From NCBI RefSeq assembly GCF_005405305.1, contig NZ_BJDU01000001.1, positions 122,791 to 186,790 on the forward strand: a stretch of 64,000 nucleotides of DNA, read 5' to 3'. The notes beneath the pieces are model-generated. The model was not told the origin of the DNA. It did no database searches and was given only the letters and a program-made list of their open reading frames with translations. The position numbers and the translations under genes are program-made. Positions 3,815 to 62,234 of the stretch are shown here, piece after piece. The stretch's first letter is position 1; every line of letters starts with the position of its first letter. This stretch comes from Companilactobacillus formosensis. Lineage in GTDB: Bacteria; Bacillota; Bacilli; Lactobacillales; Lactobacillaceae.

Positions 3815-3859
3815 AAAATGGCATCTATTCATCAAAAATCTGAATAGATGCCATTTTTT
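3815..3859. terminator. Hairpin terminator, member of a recurring hairpin family
   Basis: AATGGCATCTATTCA paired with TGAATAGATGCCATT and then T6; A-rich on the other side, so it can also serve the convergent P-type ATPase gene. The same GCATCTAYTCAGAT core recurs at 11362, 36411, 41982 and 51982. Confidence 0.8.
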
Positions 3860-3868
3860 GTATAAAAA

Positions 3869-3920
3869 TTACTGTCTAGTTCGGAATAGCAAAGAAAATT
3901 GGTTCAACGGAATATTACTA
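3869..3920 (-). repeat. Dispersed intergenic repeat, partial copy (tail part)
   Basis: Read on the minus strand it gives CAATTTTCTTTGCTATTCC then GAACTAGACAGTAA. The copy at 51921-51952 has CAATTTTCTTCGCTATTCC then GGACTAGATAGTGA. It sits next to the hairpin at 3815, the same arrangement as the copy at 51883. Confidence 0.6.
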
Positions 3921-9598: not shown

Positions 9599-11302
9599 AT
9601 GCAATTGAGTTTTTTGAAGAAAAAGTCTACTAAGAAAATCACAATAATTGTATTTACAATTTTACTTTTCTTATTGGTTAGTTTTTTAGCACTTTATCAA
9701 ACGCAGTTTTATCATGGAAAAATTTGGTCTTATTTAGGTACTAGTGATGATCGTTTTCACATGATGCGGATAGAGGGCTTGTATCATTCATTACAACGAC
9801 ATCAGTTCTTTCCATTTGTGAACATGTCATTCATGGATGGTTTTGGATATATTGTCAATATCTTTTACTCTGATTTCTTGTTGTATCCTGCTGCGTTTTT
9901 ACGCTTGATAGGATTTTCAAGTGCCCAAACTTTGATGGGATATTATTTGTTCGTCAATTTTTTGACCTTTGGAGTTTCCTTTTTGTGTTTTTACAAAGTC
10001 AGTCAAAAGTATCTCAATAGTTTAGTATTTAGTTTTGTCTATACTTTATCGACTTATCGTTTGCACAATTTATTGTTCCGTCATGACTTAGGTGAGGTCG
10101 GAGCTTTCATTTTCTTACCCATCGCGATGTTAGGTATTTACGAAATCTTTTATGGAAATCGTAAGAAATGGTGGTATTTGACTTTCGGAATGACAGCAAT
10201 CATATATTCGCATGCAATTTCGCCAATCCTTGTTGCTATTTTGATAGTTATCATTGGCTTATGTCAGTACAAAGAGATTCAAAAACATCCTAAACGTTTG
10301 TTGTCATTAGGTTGGGCAGCGTTGTGTTCTTTGTTACTATCAGCGGCGTATTTCTTACCCATGATTGAACAATTGCGACATACGAAATTTGTCTTAACGC
10401 AGTCGAATGGAATTTTACCAAAGGGTGCTACAAGTTTCTTTGATATGAGTAAATGGAGTTTGAATAACGGTCTAGGTGAACCTAATATTGGAATAGTCTT
10501 ATTCATTGCAGCCGTCGTAATAGTGTTGTCATTTACTAAAATCAAAAATAAAGCTGTCAAAGACTTTGCACTAATAGGTGTTATTTTATTGCTCTGCAGT
10601 ACTAAAGTATTTCCTTGGGTAATTTTAAATCATACGCCATTCAAAGTAATTCAATATCCTTGGCGTTTTGATATGTTGATTACTTTGTTATTAGCTATTG
10701 TGGTAGCGAGCGATCCACTAAAACTCTTTAATAGTAAATTGGCCAAAAGTGGTTTGATTTTCTTCACATTGTTGTTTGCTATTTCAGCTAGTTATCGTTT
10801 GGTACAAGGTTCGTCACTACAATTTGTTGATCAGAGTGAATATAATCAACTAGAACCCTTTAGTATTGGCGCAGGACAAGAATATTTACCTCAAGGTACA
10901 AGCTTAAGTGATTTACAAAGAATGCCTCATAAGCCGCAAATAACGGCAGGTAAGGCGAAGATTAGTCAGTTCAAGCAATACGGTACACGCTTGAGTTTTA
11001 ATTTTAGGAATGCTAAGAATGCTAAAGTAGATATTCCTATCATTGCTTATTATGGTTTTCAATCTACTCAATCGGAAGGTAAAGTATCTAGCTTGCAAGT
11101 AGATAAGACTAACAATAATTTGGCTCAAGTAACGGTCAACGGCAGTGGGAAAGTCGTCATTGACTATTTTGAAACGATGACTCAAAAGGTTGCACGTCGT
11201 ATTTCATTCTTATCGTTGCTAATCATGATAGCGATAATCTTTATTAATAAATTGAATCTAGTAGACTTTGGAAAAATCGAAGGTCTACGTTCTAAGGAAT
11301 AA
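9599..11302 (+). CDS. GT-C-like polytopic membrane protein, second of a tandem pair
   Basis: 567 residues from the ATG at 9599, chosen because AAGGAAGG lies ten bases before it; an in-frame GTG at 9551 has no such site. It shares the layout of its neighbour: the loop motif SDDRFHMMRIEGLYHS, a 'GFGYI.NIFYS' motif, 'FSFVYTLSTYR', and a C-terminal segment beginning SIGAGQEYLP, followed by a final helix. Clear gene duplication. Two similar transferases side by side may add sugar to the same polymer or act on different carriers; this is inference. Confidence 0.65.
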   Translation: MQLSFLKKKSTKKITIIVFTILLFLLVSFLALYQTQFYHGKIWSYLGTSDDRFHMMRIEGLYHSLQRHQFFPFVNMSFMDGFGYIVNIFYSDFLLYPAAFLRLIGFSSAQTLMGYYLFVNFLTFGVSFLCFYKVSQKYLNSLVFSFVYTLSTYRLHNLLFRHDLGEVGAFIFLPIAMLGIYEIFYGNRKKWWYLTFGMTAIIYSHAISPILVAILIVIIGLCQYKEIQKHPKRLLSLGWAALCSLLLSAAYFLPMIEQLRHTKFVLTQSNGILPKGATSFFDMSKWSLNNGLGEPNIGIVLFIAAVVIVLSFTKIKNKAVKDFALIGVILLLCSTKVFPWVILNHTPFKVIQYPWRFDMLITLLLAIVVASDPLKLFNSKLAKSGLIFFTLLFAISASYRLVQGSSLQFVDQSEYNQLEPFSIGAGQEYLPQGTSLSDLQRMPHKPQITAGKAKISQFKQYGTRLSFNFRNAKNAKVDIPIIAYYGFQSTQSEGKVSSLQVDKTNNNLAQVTVNGSGKVVIDYFETMTQKVARRISFLSLLIMIAIIFINKLNLVDFGKIEGLRSKE

Positions 11303-11361
11303 ACAAAACGGCTGATCCATCACAGGGCTTGTGCTATTTATTCAAATTGATACAAAATCAA

Positions 11362-11416
11362 AATAAGCATCTACTCAGATATAGTCGATTAACTATTATC
11401 TGAGTAGATGCTTATT
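11362..11416. terminator. Long bidirectional hairpin, recurring family
   Basis: AATAAGCATCTACTCAGATATAGT pairs with the mirror strand ending ATCTGAGTAGATGCTTATT; about 24 bp with one bulge and a CGATTA loop. It lies between two convergent genes. Confidence 0.75.
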
Positions 11417-11460
11417 TGCTTTGCCGTGGAGGACGGAATCCTAAACTAACCTAAGAATCC
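11417..11460 (-). repeat. Dispersed intergenic repeat, partial copy (head part)
   Basis: On the minus strand it reads TTAGGTTAGTTTAGGATTCC then GTCCTCCACGGCAAAGC. This matches the head of the copies at 18456 and 51883. It directly abuts the hairpin at 11362. Confidence 0.6.
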
Positions 11461-11485
11461 CATCGAATTCAGCTTTTTTATGTAT

Positions 11486-12877
11486 TTATTTATTCTTCAA
11501 ATCATCAACGTCAGTCAATGATGCTAAATTATCTTGTTTTGTAACGGCTTTTTTATCAACCGTAACTTTGAACCAGTTAACGAAACCGTGATCGAATTCC
11601 GCAACTTCAAAATGAAAGTTATCCATATCAAAGGTGGAACCTTTTTGTAAATTAGGGAATTTTTCAATTAGGTAACCACCAATGGTGATGATATCGGATT
11701 TTTGAAATTCGCTAACGTCAGTTTTGAAGTAACGTTCGAAATCATATAAGGTAGTTTTACCAGAAACATTGTATGAACCATCTTCATTTTTAACGATGTA
11801 TTCATCAGAAACATCATCAATTTCATCCTTAACTGTTCCGAATAATTCCTCGTAGATATCCTTATCAGTGACAATACCACTAGTACCACCATATTCATCA
11901 ACGACAATAACGATAGGTGTTTGTTTCTTGATCATTTTAGACAAGATATCTTGAATTGGCATAGTTTCAGGAACAGTATTAACAGAACGCAAGATACGAC
12001 TGATGCCAACGTCACCATCAACTTGATTTTGACGAACGATATCATAGGCGTAAACGTAACCTAAAACTTTATCTTTATCATTATCTGCCACAACAGGAAA
12101 TCTTGAGAAGCCTTGTTGTAAATAATCTTTGATAACATCTTTGACTTTGTCCGTTATATCGACAACATAAAGACTCGTCCGGTCGACCATAATATCTTTA
12201 GCAACTTTATCATTCAATTCGAAAGCACGTTGCATAAAGATAACGTCATCTGGTTCCATATCGCCGCCTTTGATTGAAGACTTAGATAATCTTAGGATCT
12301 CAGATTGTGAGAAGACTTCATTTTCGCTATCAGCTGGTTTCATACCCATTAATCTGACGATTCCAGATGCGGACACGTTGAGCAACCAAACGAACGGATA
12401 AACGGCAACATGGAAGAAACGTAATGGTGTAACGACTAACATTAACATTTTCATTGGCATATCGATTGAGATATTCTTTGGAACGATTTCTGTTAGAACC
12501 ACTTCCAAATAAGTTAGTAGTAAAACACCAACGATTGAGCTTATAGCATGTAAACCACTACTACCGCCAGCAGAGATATGAGCAACGCCTAGTACTTCTA
12601 TTAGTAAGTATTCGATGGTACTTTCACCGATCCAACCTAAGATAATACCAGCGATACTAGTACCAACTTGAGTAGTTGATAAGTATTCGTTTAGGTTATT
12701 GACCATCTTTAAAGCACGTTGTAATTTCTTTTTGTTTCCTTCACCCTTTTGAATAGCATCCTCTAGTTGACTGGATCTGGTTTGAACTAAGGCAAACTCA
12801 GCAGCCACGAAGAAGAAGGCAAAGATAAAGGTAACAAGTATGATAATAAAATTTGTTGTAATTGCAGAACTTGACAA
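11486..12877 (-). CDS. CNNM/CorC-type hemolysin-family membrane protein
   Basis: 463 residues from a TTG at 12877 preceded by AGAAGGGGA; a longer frame to 12946 lacks a ribosome site. The N-terminal DUF21/CNNM membrane domain (residues about 1-195) starts SSAITTNFIIILVTFIFAFFFVAAEFA. Two CBS domains follow (about 210-340, with SRFPVV and VDEYGGTSGIVT), and a C-terminal CorC_HlyC domain ends the protein. The family is tied to magnesium or cobalt efflux and to membrane stress. 'Hemolysin' is a historical name and no toxin role should be inferred. Confidence 0.85.
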   Translation of the reverse strand: MSSSAITTNFIIILVTFIFAFFFVAAEFALVQTRSSQLEDAIQKGEGNKKKLQRALKMVNNLNEYLSTTQVGTSIAGIILGWIGESTIEYLLIEVLGVAHISAGGSSGLHAISSIVGVLLLTYLEVVLTEIVPKNISIDMPMKMLMLVVTPLRFFHVAVYPFVWLLNVSASGIVRLMGMKPADSENEVFSQSEILRLSKSSIKGGDMEPDDVIFMQRAFELNDKVAKDIMVDRTSLYVVDITDKVKDVIKDYLQQGFSRFPVVADNDKDKVLGYVYAYDIVRQNQVDGDVGISRILRSVNTVPETMPIQDILSKMIKKQTPIVIVVDEYGGTSGIVTDKDIYEELFGTVKDEIDDVSDEYIVKNEDGSYNVSGKTTLYDFERYFKTDVSEFQKSDIITIGGYLIEKFPNLQKGSTFDMDNFHFEVAEFDHGFVNWFKVTVDKKAVTKQDNLASLTDVDDLKNK

Positions 12878-18375: not shown

Positions 18376-18455
18376 TGTATCCCCCAAATATTCTCAAGTG
18401 AATTCAATTATATAATTTTTTAAATAAAAGTACACAGAAAATTTGAGCCTTTTGT

Positions 18456-18552
18456 TTAGGTTAGTGTAGTATTCCGTCATCCATTCGGCTTTGTGGACAC
18501 TGGAACGTACTGGGAACAACTTTAAGCCAATTCCAGAACCGGGAACAGTCTT
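18456..18552 (+). repeat. Dispersed intergenic repeat, long copy
   Basis: Begins TTAGGTTAGTGTAGTATTCC then GTCATCCATTCGGCTTTGTG then GACACTGGAACGTACTGGGA. The element at 62117-62234 read on the minus strand has the same order: TAGGTTAATATCATATGCCG, then CGGCTTTGTGGATGCTGGAA, then CGTACTGAG. It lies in the 277-base gap upstream of the helicase operon. Right boundary is uncertain. Confidence 0.65.
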
Positions 18553-18652
18553 AAATCTAATCAAAATTTTATGAGTACTTAAATTAGGATAATAAAGACA
18601 AAACAGAACGTATGTTTTACAATGTTAGTTAACAATTACGAGGTGGAAAAGT

Positions 18653-21034
18653 ATGGCGACTAAAATTGGAATTCGACAATTAGTAGAATTCGTCTTGCGC
18701 AGTGGTGATTTAAATGAGACTAAAAATAGTCAAAATACAGCCCTGAATGGTGCACGAATTCATCGTCGTTTGCAAAAAAAACGTATCAAGGATCCAGATT
18801 ATCAAAGCGAAGTTTATTTAAAGACCGAAGTGACGATGAATGATAATGAATACTTGATATCAGGTCGTGCTGACGGTTTAAAAATAACTGATAAAAATGC
18901 GCTGATTGAGGAAATTAAAACTTCAGATCAACCGTTTGAAGAATTAAGCGATAATACCTTGGAATTGTATTGGGGACAGGTCAAAGTCTATGGTTACTTG
19001 ATTTTAAAGGACCATCCAGAATTTGATCATGTGACTTTAAGATTAACGTATTTTCAGGTTAGTACTGAGAAGATTACGACTGATGAGCAAGTTTATAGTC
19101 GTGATGATTTAAATAAATTTTTTGAAGATTTAATTGATGAATATGAATATTGGTTAGTGTTGCGTGCCAATTTACGAAAAGAACGCAATACTTCAATTAA
19201 AAAATTACAGTTTCCTTTTCCACAGTTTCGGACGGGTCAACATGAATTAGCGGCAGCAGTTTATAAGACAATTGTGTATGAGACAAGATTATTCGTTGAA
19301 GCACCGACGGGTACTGGAAAGACGATTTCAACATTATTTCCAGCTATTAAGGCGATGGGCGAGGAGAAAATTCAACGATTATTTTATTTAACGGCTAAAC
19401 AAAGTACTAGAAGAGTTGCTGAAGAGGCTATCGATTTGATGGCTAGTAAAGGCTTGAAACTAAAAAGTATTACGTTGACGGCAAAAGATAAGATTCGTTT
19501 TCCTGAACAAGATGTTCCACCAGAAAAAGATCCTTATATGATTGGCTACTATGACCGCTTAAAGCCTGCTTTGTCAGACTTGTTGACTAATGAAAACAGT
19601 ATTACTCGTGAAGTAATTGAAAAATATGCTAAGAAACATCAGGTCGATCCTTTTGAATTTTCACTGGATGCTTCCTTATTTTGTGATGTAATTATTTGTG
19701 ATTATAATTATTTATTCGATCCATTAGTTTATTTGCAACGTTTCTTTATTGAGAAGGATACTGATAATTTCTTCTTGATTGATGAAGCACATAACTTAGT
19801 CAGTCGTTCTCGGTCAATGTATTCAGCTCAAATCAGTGATCAAAAAATTACTGGTTTGCTAAAAGCGGCTAGAAAAATCAATACACAACCAAGTGCTGAT
19901 TTTCAAAAACAAATAAAAAAGGTTCGGCGAGTATTCAATCAAATGAAGAAGATTTTAAAAGACGATGATTTAACTGAAAAAATCACGTCTGATGTCCCTG
20001 ATAAACTGTTGAATACTTTGAGTAAATTTAATGACTTTATGACTGATTGGATGGCAGACCAACAACCGTCAGATTTTCTCGATAATGCCAAAGATTACTT
20101 TTTCGATAGTTTAACGTTTGTCAAAATTGGAGCGTTATATGACGATACTTACAAGACGAGAATTGTGATTGAAGATAAAAATTTGATTGTCAAACAATTG
20201 TGCCTTGACCCTAGTCACTTCTTAGATAAGTCTTTGGATTTAGGCTTAGGAGCGGTGTTTTTCTCAGCCACATTGTCACCAATGGATTATTATCAGAGTG
20301 TTTTAGGTGGCAAAGAAAATAGCTTGGCATATCAATTGCCGTCTCCGTTTCCTGCACAAAATCAAGCTATTATGGTCACACGTTATATCCAAACGACTTA
20401 TCGTCAACGTCCTTTTAGCCAAGATGATATTGTCGAAAGTTTGCATGCTTTGATTAGCGGTAAAAAAGGTAATTACTTATGCTTTTTTCCTTCGTATGGC
20501 TATTTAAAGCAGATTAAAGAGCTTTTTGAGGAAAAATACCCAGAGATTTTAACAGTTACGCAAACGAGTGCAATGAATAATCTGGCTCGTGATGAATTCT
20601 TGAATAAATTCCATGATAATCCTGATCATACTTTATTGGGATTTTGTGTTCTTGGAGGAATTTTTTCAGAAGGAATTGATTTACGAGGTAATAAATTAAT
20701 AGGCGTGGCTGTTGTCAGTGTTGGGTTACCTGGACTCAGTGCAGAGAATAACTTAATACGTGATTATTATGATCAAGAAAATGGACGTGGCTTTGAATAT
20801 GCCTATCAGATGCCAGGAATGAACAACGTCTTGCAAGCTGCAGGAAGATTAATTCGCAGTAGTCACGATAAGGGGATTATTTTGTTGTTGGATCAACGCT
20901 TTGCAAGTTTTCGTTATACACAGCTTTTTCCTAATCATTGGCAAAATCGACAAAATTTAAATTCACTAGAACAATTACGGCAAGCTGTGGATAAGTTTTG
21001 GAAGGGAGTTTCGAATGAAGACCAAGTTAACTAA
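18653..21034 (+). CDS. XPD/DinG-like helicase with N-terminal PD-(D/E)XK domain, iron-sulphur cysteines lost
   Basis: 793 residues. Residues 1-130 form a Cas4/RecB-like nuclease fold with Asp74 (SGRADG) and Glu87-x-Lys89 (EEIKTS). The superfamily-2 helicase follows: Walker A APTGTGKT at 217-224, DEAH at 377-380, and a C-terminal helicase domain with a GRLIRS arginine finger near residue 740. In relatives I remember, four Cys between motifs Ia and II hold a 4Fe-4S cluster. Here those places read KIRF (Arg282), VPPE (Pro289), DPYM (Asp293) and VDPFEF (Asp332). Expected role: 5'-3' DNA unwinding in repair. The next gene overlaps it by 20 bases. Confidence 0.85.
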   Translation: MATKIGIRQLVEFVLRSGDLNETKNSQNTALNGARIHRRLQKKRIKDPDYQSEVYLKTEVTMNDNEYLISGRADGLKITDKNALIEEIKTSDQPFEELSDNTLELYWGQVKVYGYLILKDHPEFDHVTLRLTYFQVSTEKITTDEQVYSRDDLNKFFEDLIDEYEYWLVLRANLRKERNTSIKKLQFPFPQFRTGQHELAAAVYKTIVYETRLFVEAPTGTGKTISTLFPAIKAMGEEKIQRLFYLTAKQSTRRVAEEAIDLMASKGLKLKSITLTAKDKIRFPEQDVPPEKDPYMIGYYDRLKPALSDLLTNENSITREVIEKYAKKHQVDPFEFSLDASLFCDVIICDYNYLFDPLVYLQRFFIEKDTDNFFLIDEAHNLVSRSRSMYSAQISDQKITGLLKAARKINTQPSADFQKQIKKVRRVFNQMKKILKDDDLTEKITSDVPDKLLNTLSKFNDFMTDWMADQQPSDFLDNAKDYFFDSLTFVKIGALYDDTYKTRIVIEDKNLIVKQLCLDPSHFLDKSLDLGLGAVFFSATLSPMDYYQSVLGGKENSLAYQLPSPFPAQNQAIMVTRYIQTTYRQRPFSQDDIVESLHALISGKKGNYLCFFPSYGYLKQIKELFEEKYPEILTVTQTSAMNNLARDEFLNKFHDNPDHTLLGFCVLGGIFSEGIDLRGNKLIGVAVVSVGLPGLSAENNLIRDYYDQENGRGFEYAYQMPGMNNVLQAAGRLIRSSHDKGIILLLDQRFASFRYTQLFPNHWQNRQNLNSLEQLRQAVDKFWKGVSNEDQVN

Positions 21035-23701: not shown

Positions 23702-23745
23702 TTAGGTTAGTGTTAAATTATCGTTACTCCTGACTAGATAACGTC
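23702..23745 (+). repeat. Dispersed intergenic repeat, internally deleted copy
   Basis: TTAGGTTAGTGTTAAATT at one side and CTGACTAGATAACGTC at the other: the head and tail motifs of the family with the central palindrome missing. Confidence 0.5.
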
Positions 23746-23788
23746 TTCTATTATTTATTCCAAATAATTAATAAATTAAAAAATAAAA

Positions 23789-23845
23789 TCGCTATGGAGG
23801 ACGGCATGCTACACTGACTGAATTTTAGAACTAACTAAAGAATAG
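23789..23845 (-). repeat. Dispersed intergenic repeat, head part
   Basis: On the minus strand: CAGTCAGTGTAGCATGCCGT then CCTCCATAGC, matching the copy at 51883 (GCCGTCCTCCATAGCG). It lies 16 bases before the yitT-type gene, so it may form part of that gene's leader. Confidence 0.6.
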
Positions 23846-36410: not shown

Positions 36411-36464
36411 AAAAAACGTATTTATTCAGATTCTTTGAGACAGATCTGAGTAGATGCGTTTTTT
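36411..36464. terminator. Hairpin terminator, recurring family
   Basis: AAAAAACGTATTTATTCAGAT with ATCTGAGTAGATGCGTTTTTT. The arms are imperfect but share the GATGC/ATTCAGAT core with the hairpins at 3815 and 11362. Confidence 0.75.
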
Positions 36465-36483: not shown

Positions 36484-36520
36484 GCTACTATCTAGTCTGG
36501 AATATTACCACCAACTAAAC
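36484..36520 (-). repeat. Dispersed intergenic repeat, tail fragment
   Basis: Minus strand reads GTAATATTCCAGACTAGATA then GTAGC. It matches the tail TATTCCGGACTAGATAGTGA of the copy at 51883 and again sits beside a GATGC hairpin. Confidence 0.5.
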
Positions 36521-46408: not shown

Positions 46409-46437
46409 TTGCTAAAAATTAAAACAGCAGTTATAAT
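46409..46437 (+). promoter_or_regulatory. Promoter of the small antitoxin RNA
   Basis: TTGCTA, 17 bases, TATAAT: a near-consensus promoter with no protein gene behind it on this strand. Confidence 0.65.
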
Positions 46438-46443
46438 ATCTTT

Positions 46444-46543
46444 GTAATTGAAAAGAGACCAAGAGGATGTACCCCTCTTAGTCTCAATCATGAGTCTGAA
46501 TAGATTTGTTGGTGAGCTAACCTTTACGGTTAGCTTTTTTGAT
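46444..46543 (+). ncRNA. Probable type I antitoxin RNA, about 100 bases
   Basis: Begins about seven bases after the TATAAT, forms a 5' hairpin (GAGACCAAGAGG / CCTCTTAGTCTC) and ends in a strong terminator, GAGCTAACC TTTAC GGTTAGCTTTTTT. The whole RNA is antisense to the 3' part of the toxin transcript on the minus strand. Part of it (GATGTACCCC near 46467) also partly matches the toxin's ribosome-site region read on the plus strand (ATGCACCTCC), which would allow pairing there. Start and end are inferred from the promoter and hairpin. Confidence 0.55.
46449..46484 (-). terminator. Terminator of the toxin transcript
   Basis: Read on the minus strand: GAGACTAAGAGG, loop, CCTCTTGGTCTC, TTTT. 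It gives a toxin mRNA of about 300 bases. Confidence 0.65.
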
Positions 46544-46646
46544 TATCGCATATGCAATGGCGAAGTTAATACTTGCCATCGATATGGTCAAAATGAAAAA
46601 AGCGACCATAATGCTCAATCCAACTCCTACTATTCGATTTCTTCAT
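46517..46646 (-). pseudogene. Type I toxin-like membrane peptide, broken by a one-base insertion
   Basis: A ribosome site GGAGG (46656-46660) stands nine bases before an ATG at 46646, but that frame gives a non-hydrophobic 26-residue peptide. If one A is removed from the AAA at 46638-46640, the frame becomes 42 residues: MKNRIVGVGLSIMVAFFIL, a continuing hydrophobic helix, then IIKKANRKG. This is the plan of type I toxins: one membrane helix with a basic tail. The stop lies just inside the antitoxin terminator. Either the toxin is dead or the base is a sequencing error. Confidence 0.5.
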
Positions 46647-46754
46647 AGTCATGCACCTCCACTTGTAAAAGTAATTGAGGGGTGCTGCACCATTCAGCTT
46701 TTACGCTCACTAGGCCAAAATGGGAGCGACCCATTAGAGCTTGACCATGACTTA

Positions 46755-46783
46755 AGAATAGAGATAAATTAAATTTCTAGCAA
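46755..46783 (-). promoter_or_regulatory. Promoter of the toxin transcript
   Basis: On the minus strand: TTGCTA, 17 bases, TATTCT. It leads to a leader of about 100 bases with stem-forming arms before the GGAGG site. Confidence 0.55.
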
Positions 46784-46794
46784 CAAAATAATGC

Positions 46795-46836
46795 AAAAAA
46801 ACTCCTCAAAATTAATTGAAATTTTGAGGAGTTTTT
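46795..46836. terminator. Terminator after the MacB-like ABC gene
   Basis: AAAAACTCCTCAAAAT paired with ATTTTGAGGAGTTTTT; a long perfect stem for the minus-strand gene. Confidence 0.8.
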
Positions 46837-51882: not shown

Positions 51883-51955
51883 TGCCGTCCTCCATAGCGA
51901 AGAAAATTTCACATCTGAGCCAATTTTCTTCGCTATTCCGGACTAGATAGTGATT
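51883..51955 (+). repeat. Dispersed intergenic repeat, best-preserved central palindrome
   Basis: GCCGTCCTCCA, then TAGCGAAGAAAATT (51895-51908), a 13-base loop, the exact mirror AATTTTCTTCGCTA (51922-51935), then TTCCGGACTAGATAGTGA. The perfect 14-bp arms would fold as a hairpin. The GATGC terminator at 51982 follows. Confidence 0.7.
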
Positions 51956-51981
51956 CTATTTTTATTTAATATCAACAAATC

Positions 51982-52034
51982 AAAAGCATCTATTCGGAGT
52001 TGTGTGCGCACACTTTCCAAATGGATGCTTTTTT
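51982..52034. terminator. Hairpin terminator, recurring family
   Basis: AAAAGCATCTATTCGGAGT with arms GTGTG/CACAC and ending CAAATGGATGCTTTTTT. It serves the MFS gene and codB, which converge here. Confidence 0.75.
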
Positions 52035-62116: not shown

Positions 62117-62234
62117 TTAATTAGGATTCTTTTTAAACCTTATCTAGTCAGTAGTGACAGCTTTGTGGATGCTCAGTACGTTCCAGCATCCACAAAGCCG
62201 AACGAACGACGGCATATGATATTAACCTAATTAA
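62117..62234 (-). repeat. Dispersed intergenic repeat, full-length copy with outer inverted ends
   Basis: Outer ends TTAATTAGGA (62117) and AACCTAATTAA (62224-62234) are inverted. Inside is a perfect 14-bp hairpin GCTTTGTGGATGCT/AGCATCCACAAAGC (62160-62173 and 62185-62198) and the CTATCTAGTC-like tail (TTATCTAGTCAGTAG). On the minus strand the order equals the copy at 18456. It sits between treA and the GntR gene. Confidence 0.65.

Follow-up and report, generated by a model that had tools for sequence, protein, structure and literature searches.

Decayed copies of a branched, covarying repeat module in Companilactobacillus formosensis, read as a family of non-autonomous mobile elements

The repeats scattered through the window, the whole 64,000-nucleotide stretch of Companilactobacillus formosensis DNA analysed here, are probably decayed copies of small non-autonomous mobile DNA elements, the fold of which would be read as DNA by an enzyme supplied in trans; we put the probability of this reading at about 60%. 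A sequence-only reading of the window had proposed that they form a scattered MITE-like family, composite and palindromic, with selection acting on structure, and both the matches and the covariation described below support that proposal. Two points go beyond it. The copies in the window have decayed from a fuller unit, a 172-bp branched module that often occurs in inverted pairs, and the base pairing of the module points to a DNA-like rather than an RNA-like fold. The repeats form a family, their stems covary, and the same sites are filled in some genomes and empty in others. Our reading is that these modules define a new non-autonomous mobile element family, and we infer that the Watson-Crick fold is kept because the mobilising enzyme, acting in trans, reads folded DNA.

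What an intact copy looks like is seen at other places in the genome, where the sequence around the head motif (28 exact loci inspected) reveals a 172-bp module that consists of CCGTCCTCCA, a long stem, a branched core, a closing stem and TTCCGGACTAG. Its predicted fold begins with a short basal helix, a TCC/TCC internal loop, a variable stem and a GGAAC/TG internal loop, both loops being conserved, and leads into a three-way junction from which two arms extend. In Companilactobacillus, two inverted modules can enclose a bidirectional terminator, in a composite of ~510 bp with GGTTCTTTC ends. A complete composite of 513 bp (C7:32819-33331) runs from GGTTCTTTCTTAA through the left module, the terminator hairpin and the inverted right module to TTGAGAAAGAACC, its two ends being terminal inverted repeats as in a MITE; folded as DNA, it has a z of -13.4 (100 shuffles). 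Convergent module pairs are common and form inverted doublets of palindromic units, as in REPINs of the REP-RAYT system. At one place in the same genome (L058/L059, G000 C6:105015-105244) the module of one subtype is nested, by eye, in the outer stem of another, as if composites inserted into one another.

All the repeat segments listed in the sequence-only reading are present in the window at the positions claimed for them. None contains an intact module according to the covariance model, whose sole match in the window, at 18497-18584, is weak (13.7 bits, E 0.057). On the plus strand, 51883-51955 consists of a head, an outer stem from which the core is deleted (remnant TCACATCTGAGCC) and the tail GGACTAGATAG, and 18456-18584 of a head and a truncated right-type module. 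On the minus strand, 3869-3920 is a composite remnant that has lost its core and retains the tail CTAGTTCGG and the start of the outer stem, AATAGCAAAGAAAATT; 11417-11460 is a head remnant (GGAGGACGG..CTAACCTAAG); 36484-36520 is a module-less scar (CTACTATCTAGTCTGGAATATTACC); and 62117-62234 is a composite remnant with a right-type stem, a deleted core (remnant CAGTACGTTCCAG) and the inverted outer ends that had suggested a MITE. A scrap at 11310-11333 (plus strand, GGCTGATCCATCACAGGGCTTGTG) represents, by eye against L059, the 3' part of a second module at the opposite composite end. The segments 23702-23745 and 23789-23845, earlier counted as separate copies, are genuine, but they belong together as halves of a single short composite (23702-23845, no strand assigned), which has both outer ends and no module core.

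Terminator hairpins of composite centres, likewise without assigned strand, occupy 3815-3856 (GCATCTATTC../..GAATAGATGC), 11362-11415, 36411-36460 and 51982-52032. Copies do lie beside them, as had been noticed, with hairpins of the GCATCTA type at 3821, 11367 and 51986 and a 3' arm at 36448; the order of copy and terminator, described as constant, is so only once orientation is allowed for. The hairpin arms at 51895/51922 and 62160/62185 were confirmed, as was the observation that they differ in sequence and still pair, the arms of the 51883 and 62117 copies being the outer stems of two subtypes of the larger module, whose core, by eye, is deleted in both. Two of the three motifs said to be shared among the copies are enriched across the genome over reversed-pattern controls: GGACTAGATAG has 14 exact copies against 1, and CCGTCCTCCAT has 46 against 8 with at most one mismatch. 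The third, TTAGGTTAGTG, is not enriched genome-wide at the same tolerance (31 against 113).

The module is found far outside the window. A covariance-model search of the genome and of its relatives, as had been recommended, yielded 47 matches at E<=0.01 in the C. formosensis genome, where 150 of 804 candidates were scored, and detected the module at E<=0.001 in 115 of the 397 Lactobacillaceae genomes searched, representing 15 of 40 genera, with no more than eight candidates scored per genome. In an order-wide sample 26 of 395 genomes match, 25 of them within Lactobacillaceae; the one match outside is weak (E 9.4e-4) and belongs to another family. With the 172-mer as a blastn query, 21 of 60 genomes are hit, namely the genome itself and 20 of the 35 of its genus. 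Among named genomes, the core pattern recovers 60 stretches, two from Pediococcus damnosus and 58 from Companilactobacillus (suantsaicola, kimchii, paralimentarius, futsaii, halodurans, crustorum, kimchiensis, zhongbaensis and pullicola). In each genome of these lactobacilli, dozens of repeated intergenic stretches belong to the family. No description of it was met in literature titles and the openings of abstracts, a scope that leaves aside bioRxiv and most subscription journals.

The element takes other forms in other genera. In the genus Pediococcus (L228) it has different ends (CTAAAGGTTGAAA..) with flanks ATTTTTAA and ATTCTTAA, by eye; in G105, three loci carry single-module elements of ~250 bp with ends GTAAGTGTCAACTTTTTCTCG and CGAACAAGGTGACTCAT; in G135 (L287, L288) modules stand in tandem direct arrays with a spacing of ~168-181 bp, unlike the inverted pairs of Companilactobacillus; and one G100 module (L303) caps a terminator stem. 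These variants indicate that the fold is conserved across genera and that the ends are not. An origin from phages or plasmids was rejected: neither the Companilactobacillus module nor one other subtype had a blastn match among such sequences, a third query matched only pieces of 44-47 nt on five plasmids (upstream of an ABC-transporter operon in the three inspected), and one exact pattern had 0 matches in viral contigs.

The stems change in a compensated manner. RNAalifold, applied to 28 hand-chosen modules (6 from the C. formosensis genome and 22 from relatives), predicts 44 pairs, 32 of which have changed on both sides. The core model R1 matches 165 places in 89 loci, which had been fetched for carrying the core pattern or matching the model, and the statistics were computed on the best 150 of these 165 places, 134 of them distinct. 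Because the model shaped the alignment, whose sequences are also related to one another, the values that follow are biased towards the model. In the 134 sequences 95.2% of the cells pair, against 74.0% after shuffling and 34-50% after sliding; double changes occur in 32 of 36 pairs (24.3 in shuffles) and in 984 cells (282 in shuffles), and the covariation score reaches 0.542, compared with 0.155. The number of additional pair types shows no excess over the shuffles (83 against 85.8). Few matches and uncompensated stems, the outcome set against the family beforehand, are therefore not what is seen. The unpaired loop bases are also conserved, in a strand-specific manner, and the TCC/TCC loop at the stem base recurs, by eye, in other genera (L214, L223, L232).

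Comparison with related genomes indicates that the elements have moved. All seven window gaps have a model match in the syntenic stretches of the sibling genomes G022 and/or G031, places being assigned by coordinates. G031 has modules at 3869, 11417, 18456, 23702, 51883 and 62117, full ones at the first three and at 51883 and a shortened one at 62117; G022 has them at 18456 (full), 23702, 36484 and 62117, the last as a two-module composite. No element is present at 11417 in G022 and G003, at 23702 in G003 and G021, or at 62117 in G003; the syntenic stretch of G003 (72 kb) has no model match at all, and that of G021 (44 kb) has eight. Beyond the window, the C. formosensis genome lacks the element at two sites, C1:37490 and C1:87701, that are filled in both siblings. 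At 51883, G022 lacks the module precisely between TATTCCG repeats; such a repeat borders the module (by eye) and can explain the precise module-less states.

The target-site duplications that had been suggested as a check take the form of flanking repeats of ~7 bp. At seven hand-picked sites, with some boundaries set by eye, the flanking 7-mers agree at 7, 7, 6, 6, 6, 2 and 1 of 7 positions, the site scoring 2 having an eroded right end; five of the seven thus reach 6 or 7, two of them on T-runs, and some duplications are of low complexity (TTTTTTA, ATTTTTT). In four complete composites found by script the length 7 stands out, with three of four at 6 of 7, compared with 8% of 12 cross-comparisons in the control. 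Together, the empty sites and the 7-bp flanking duplications show that the elements were mobile in the past. Several insertions lie in or beside terminator-like hairpins, as judged by eye and by folding: those at C7, C8:69201 and C5:196k within hairpin loops, that at C4:179389 in a hairpin, and that at C1:37490 in the T-run after a terminator hairpin. A preference for hairpin loops, striking by eye, is modest and suggestive under a matched control, in which a lenient criterion is satisfied by 6 of 7 sites and by 34% of 3000 random intergenic positions (p 0.0075). Insertion of the core alone into pre-existing hairpins was considered and dropped for Companilactobacillus, where the stem-only copies of the window keep core remnants; it may hold for G100, where one module caps a terminator stem.

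It is possible to outline how such an element might work. The module, as a single strand or as a cruciform, would fold into a stem and a three-way junction with two arms. The complete Companilactobacillus unit would comprise two inward-pointing modules bounded by inverted ends (GGTTCTTTCTTAA), in many cases with a bidirectional terminator at the centre, and would insert by a staggered cut that duplicates ~7 bp, several times in or beside a terminator hairpin. An enzyme supplied in trans would recognise the folded DNA, and this recognition would maintain the Watson-Crick pairing. The copies would afterwards lose their module cores by deletion, leaving stubs such as those in the window. The differences between the ends of different genera count against this explanation, as they make it uncertain that one enzyme serves all. 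More tentatively, the family may be a selfish one that spreads by means of its large branched DNA fold, read by a recombination enzyme that is not of the Y1 type and favours hairpin loops.

RAYT/IS200 enzymes were rejected as the driver. A Y1_Tnp match is associated with the presence of modules (it occurs in 59 of the 115 genomes with modules and in 80 of the remaining 282; odds ratio 2.7, p 2.6e-5, on the assumption that the same 397 genomes entered both searches), which favours them, but it is absent from 56 of the 115 module genomes, and the Y1 transposase domain (PF01797) has no match in the C. formosensis genome (G000) or in the module-rich G022, G031, G003, G026, G014 and G007. ISL3 transposases, present in 11 of 13 genomes checked, were rejected also, as at none of 30 loci do their ends match on both sides.

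These results bear on the possibility that the composite is a conventional MITE belonging to an already known IS family, of which ISL3 is a candidate, and in which the module is passive cargo and its pairing results from template-switch correction of palindromes. The inverted ends and the flanking duplications would fit such an element, and so would the GGTTCTTTC ends, which we take to resemble those of ISL3-type elements; the finding of GGTTCTTTATCAA on one side of two of 30 ISL3 loci, both from Pediococcus genomes, raises the odds slightly. We nevertheless consider it unlikely. Composite-like ends on both sides were found at 0 of the 30 ISL3 loci, and an inverted-repeat search of 17 ISL3 loci gave nothing similar, a weak test in that five of them yielded no repeat at all. 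Among the end-pattern hits examined and the 30 ISL3 loci, which cover few IS types, there is no autonomous IS that shares both ends, and no transposase gene was recognised in three module pairs with long centres (ORFs judged by eye). Furthermore, mismatches persist in the internal loops, which are conserved from genus to genus, while the ends change.

The kind of base pairs that the stems tolerate bears on whether DNA or RNA is folded. In a fold maintained as RNA, G·U should be commoner than A·C. The counts leave aside one nearly invariant G..T column pair, because it is part of the conserved GGAAC/TG loop and varies very little. The 134 modules then have 1.33% G·U and 2.46% A·C, 23 sequences from other genera have 0.62% and 1.25%, and the 28 hand-chosen modules have 2.09% and 1.75%. 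When the invariant column is counted as a pair, G·U rises to 4.0-4.3%, above A·C (4.0% against 2.4% in the 134 modules, 4.24% against 1.71% in the 28). RNase P RNA, a single-copy molecule that served as the sole cross-genus RNA control (61 of 61 genomes matched; 28 of 30 fetched loci aligned), has 14.1% G·U and 0.54% A·C of cells. With the invariant pair set aside, the modules do not tolerate G·U over A·C in the manner of a structured RNA, and because G·U is rare the fold seems to be maintained as DNA. Low G·U could have other sources, such as a need for the transcripts of both strands to fold or template-switch correction of palindromes; selection on a DNA fold is preferred over both because the unpaired loop bases are conserved and strand-specific. 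Compensatory evolution is usually taken as proof of a functional RNA, and massive covariation without a wobble preference suggests a test in which counts of G·U and A·C discriminate DNA folds from RNA folds. The hairpins of the composite centres behave as RNA only after orienting them by the stronger T-run. In the 28 distinct GCATCTA-type hairpins of the fetched DNA, which may not all lie in a composite, G·U and A·C amount to 3.1% and 4.6% when unoriented and to 5.6% and 2.0% when so oriented.

It is accordingly improbable that the module is a structured RNA (riboswitch-like, a processing site or an sRNA) that spread as a repeat and whose transcript is under selection. The strong covariation, the conserved unpaired bases and an RNA folding z of -6.5 would all agree with it, but the pair counts differ from those of RNase P RNA of the same family in both G·U and A·C, and a read-through transcript of an inverted pair would contain one sense and one antisense module. 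A known RNA family was rejected, as nothing credible was found: Rfam has no match above the gathering score in the window, none of any family in 120 kb of the C. formosensis genome, and, in eight module loci at E<=1, nothing except one snoRNA model with E 0.77.

In relation to genes, 56 module hits, hand-picked from 165, fall into 14 convergent and 29 tandem gaps, three divergent gaps and ten locus edges, and 0 of the 56 lie inside ORFs of at least 110 aa. Background gaps number 30 convergent, 78 tandem and 31 divergent, so that modules occupy divergent gaps less often than the background would predict (3 of 46 against 31 of 139, p 0.016). Although this placement, the A-runs before and T-runs after all 28 distinct GCATCTA-type hairpins and the terminator stem capped by L303 would suit a bidirectional insulator or terminator useful to the host, in which hairpins would stop transcription in either direction, so that each strand's transcript has to fold and neither strand admits wobble pairs, this is unlikely, since modules occur also in two divergent window gaps and in composites without a terminator centre, a three-way junction is unnecessary for termination, and orthologous positions are often empty.

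The mobile DNA element thus preferred resembles several known systems. Prokaryotic MITEs (PMC10969869) are small, non-coding, intergenic and highly folded, with inverted ends, direct repeats at the insertion and many truncated copies; the module elements share all of these features. They differ in that no parent IS was found among the few IS types examined, and in that the conserved part is an internal branched module with compensatory changes across genera, the ends not being conserved. REPINs are described in PMC3116915 as inverted pairs of palindromic units, extragenic and predicted to fold in single-stranded DNA, all of which applies to the modules. The CGTC motif that borders Companilactobacillus modules recalls the GTAG/CGTC-tagged REPs (PMC3733652); by eye it is present at one end of the Companilactobacillus and Pediococcus copies and absent from L214, L223 and L232. 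In contrast to REPINs, which are built of hairpins of 20-40 bp, the units are branched and ~170 nt long and have flanking duplications of ~7 bp, and, unlike REP/RAYT, the C. formosensis genome has no Y1 transposase match. As the unit size and the transposase both differ, the family was not filed under REPINs.

The BOX, RUP and SPRITE repeats of Streptococcus pneumoniae, as described in PMC3049150, are modular and folded, with inverted ends in BOX and RUP and terminator-like parts in SPRITE; they insert into one another, and are common in S. pneumoniae, less so in S. mitis and very rare in the remaining streptococci. Compared by description, the module elements are likewise modular and folded, with inverted ends and terminator parts, but the module spans 15 genera of one family. 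The module element works like a MITE or a REPIN; as a MITE, it is one whose parent IS was not found among the IS types examined.

The attC sites of integrons are variable in sequence and conserved in structure, with folded single-strand DNA and conserved unpaired bases. The module likewise varies in sequence and keeps its fold and unpaired bases; unlike attC sites, the elements are dispersed and have flanking duplications. The family points to an enzyme that reads DNA folds. If this is true, the family would be a folded-DNA counterpart of the structured RNAs of retroelements, evolving by Watson-Crick covariation.

Some minor observations concern the gaps compared above. In the gap 18387-18653 the AGCAAAG/AACAAAG-type modules are oppositely oriented in G031 and G022, which suggests independent insertions or an inversion. 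The G022 module syntenic to 36484 (L238) is interrupted near the end of its fold by an insertion of ~1.7 kb, which by eye looks like an IS3-type element. In G021, the gap syntenic to 11302-11486 is occupied by other long palindromic repeats (GAGTTGCTC.. and GCCAGACTCAG..). Finally, a 378-bp intergenic stretch of the window around ..GAGGATGTACCCCTCTTAGTCT.. (~46418-46797) is missing in G022 and present in G031.
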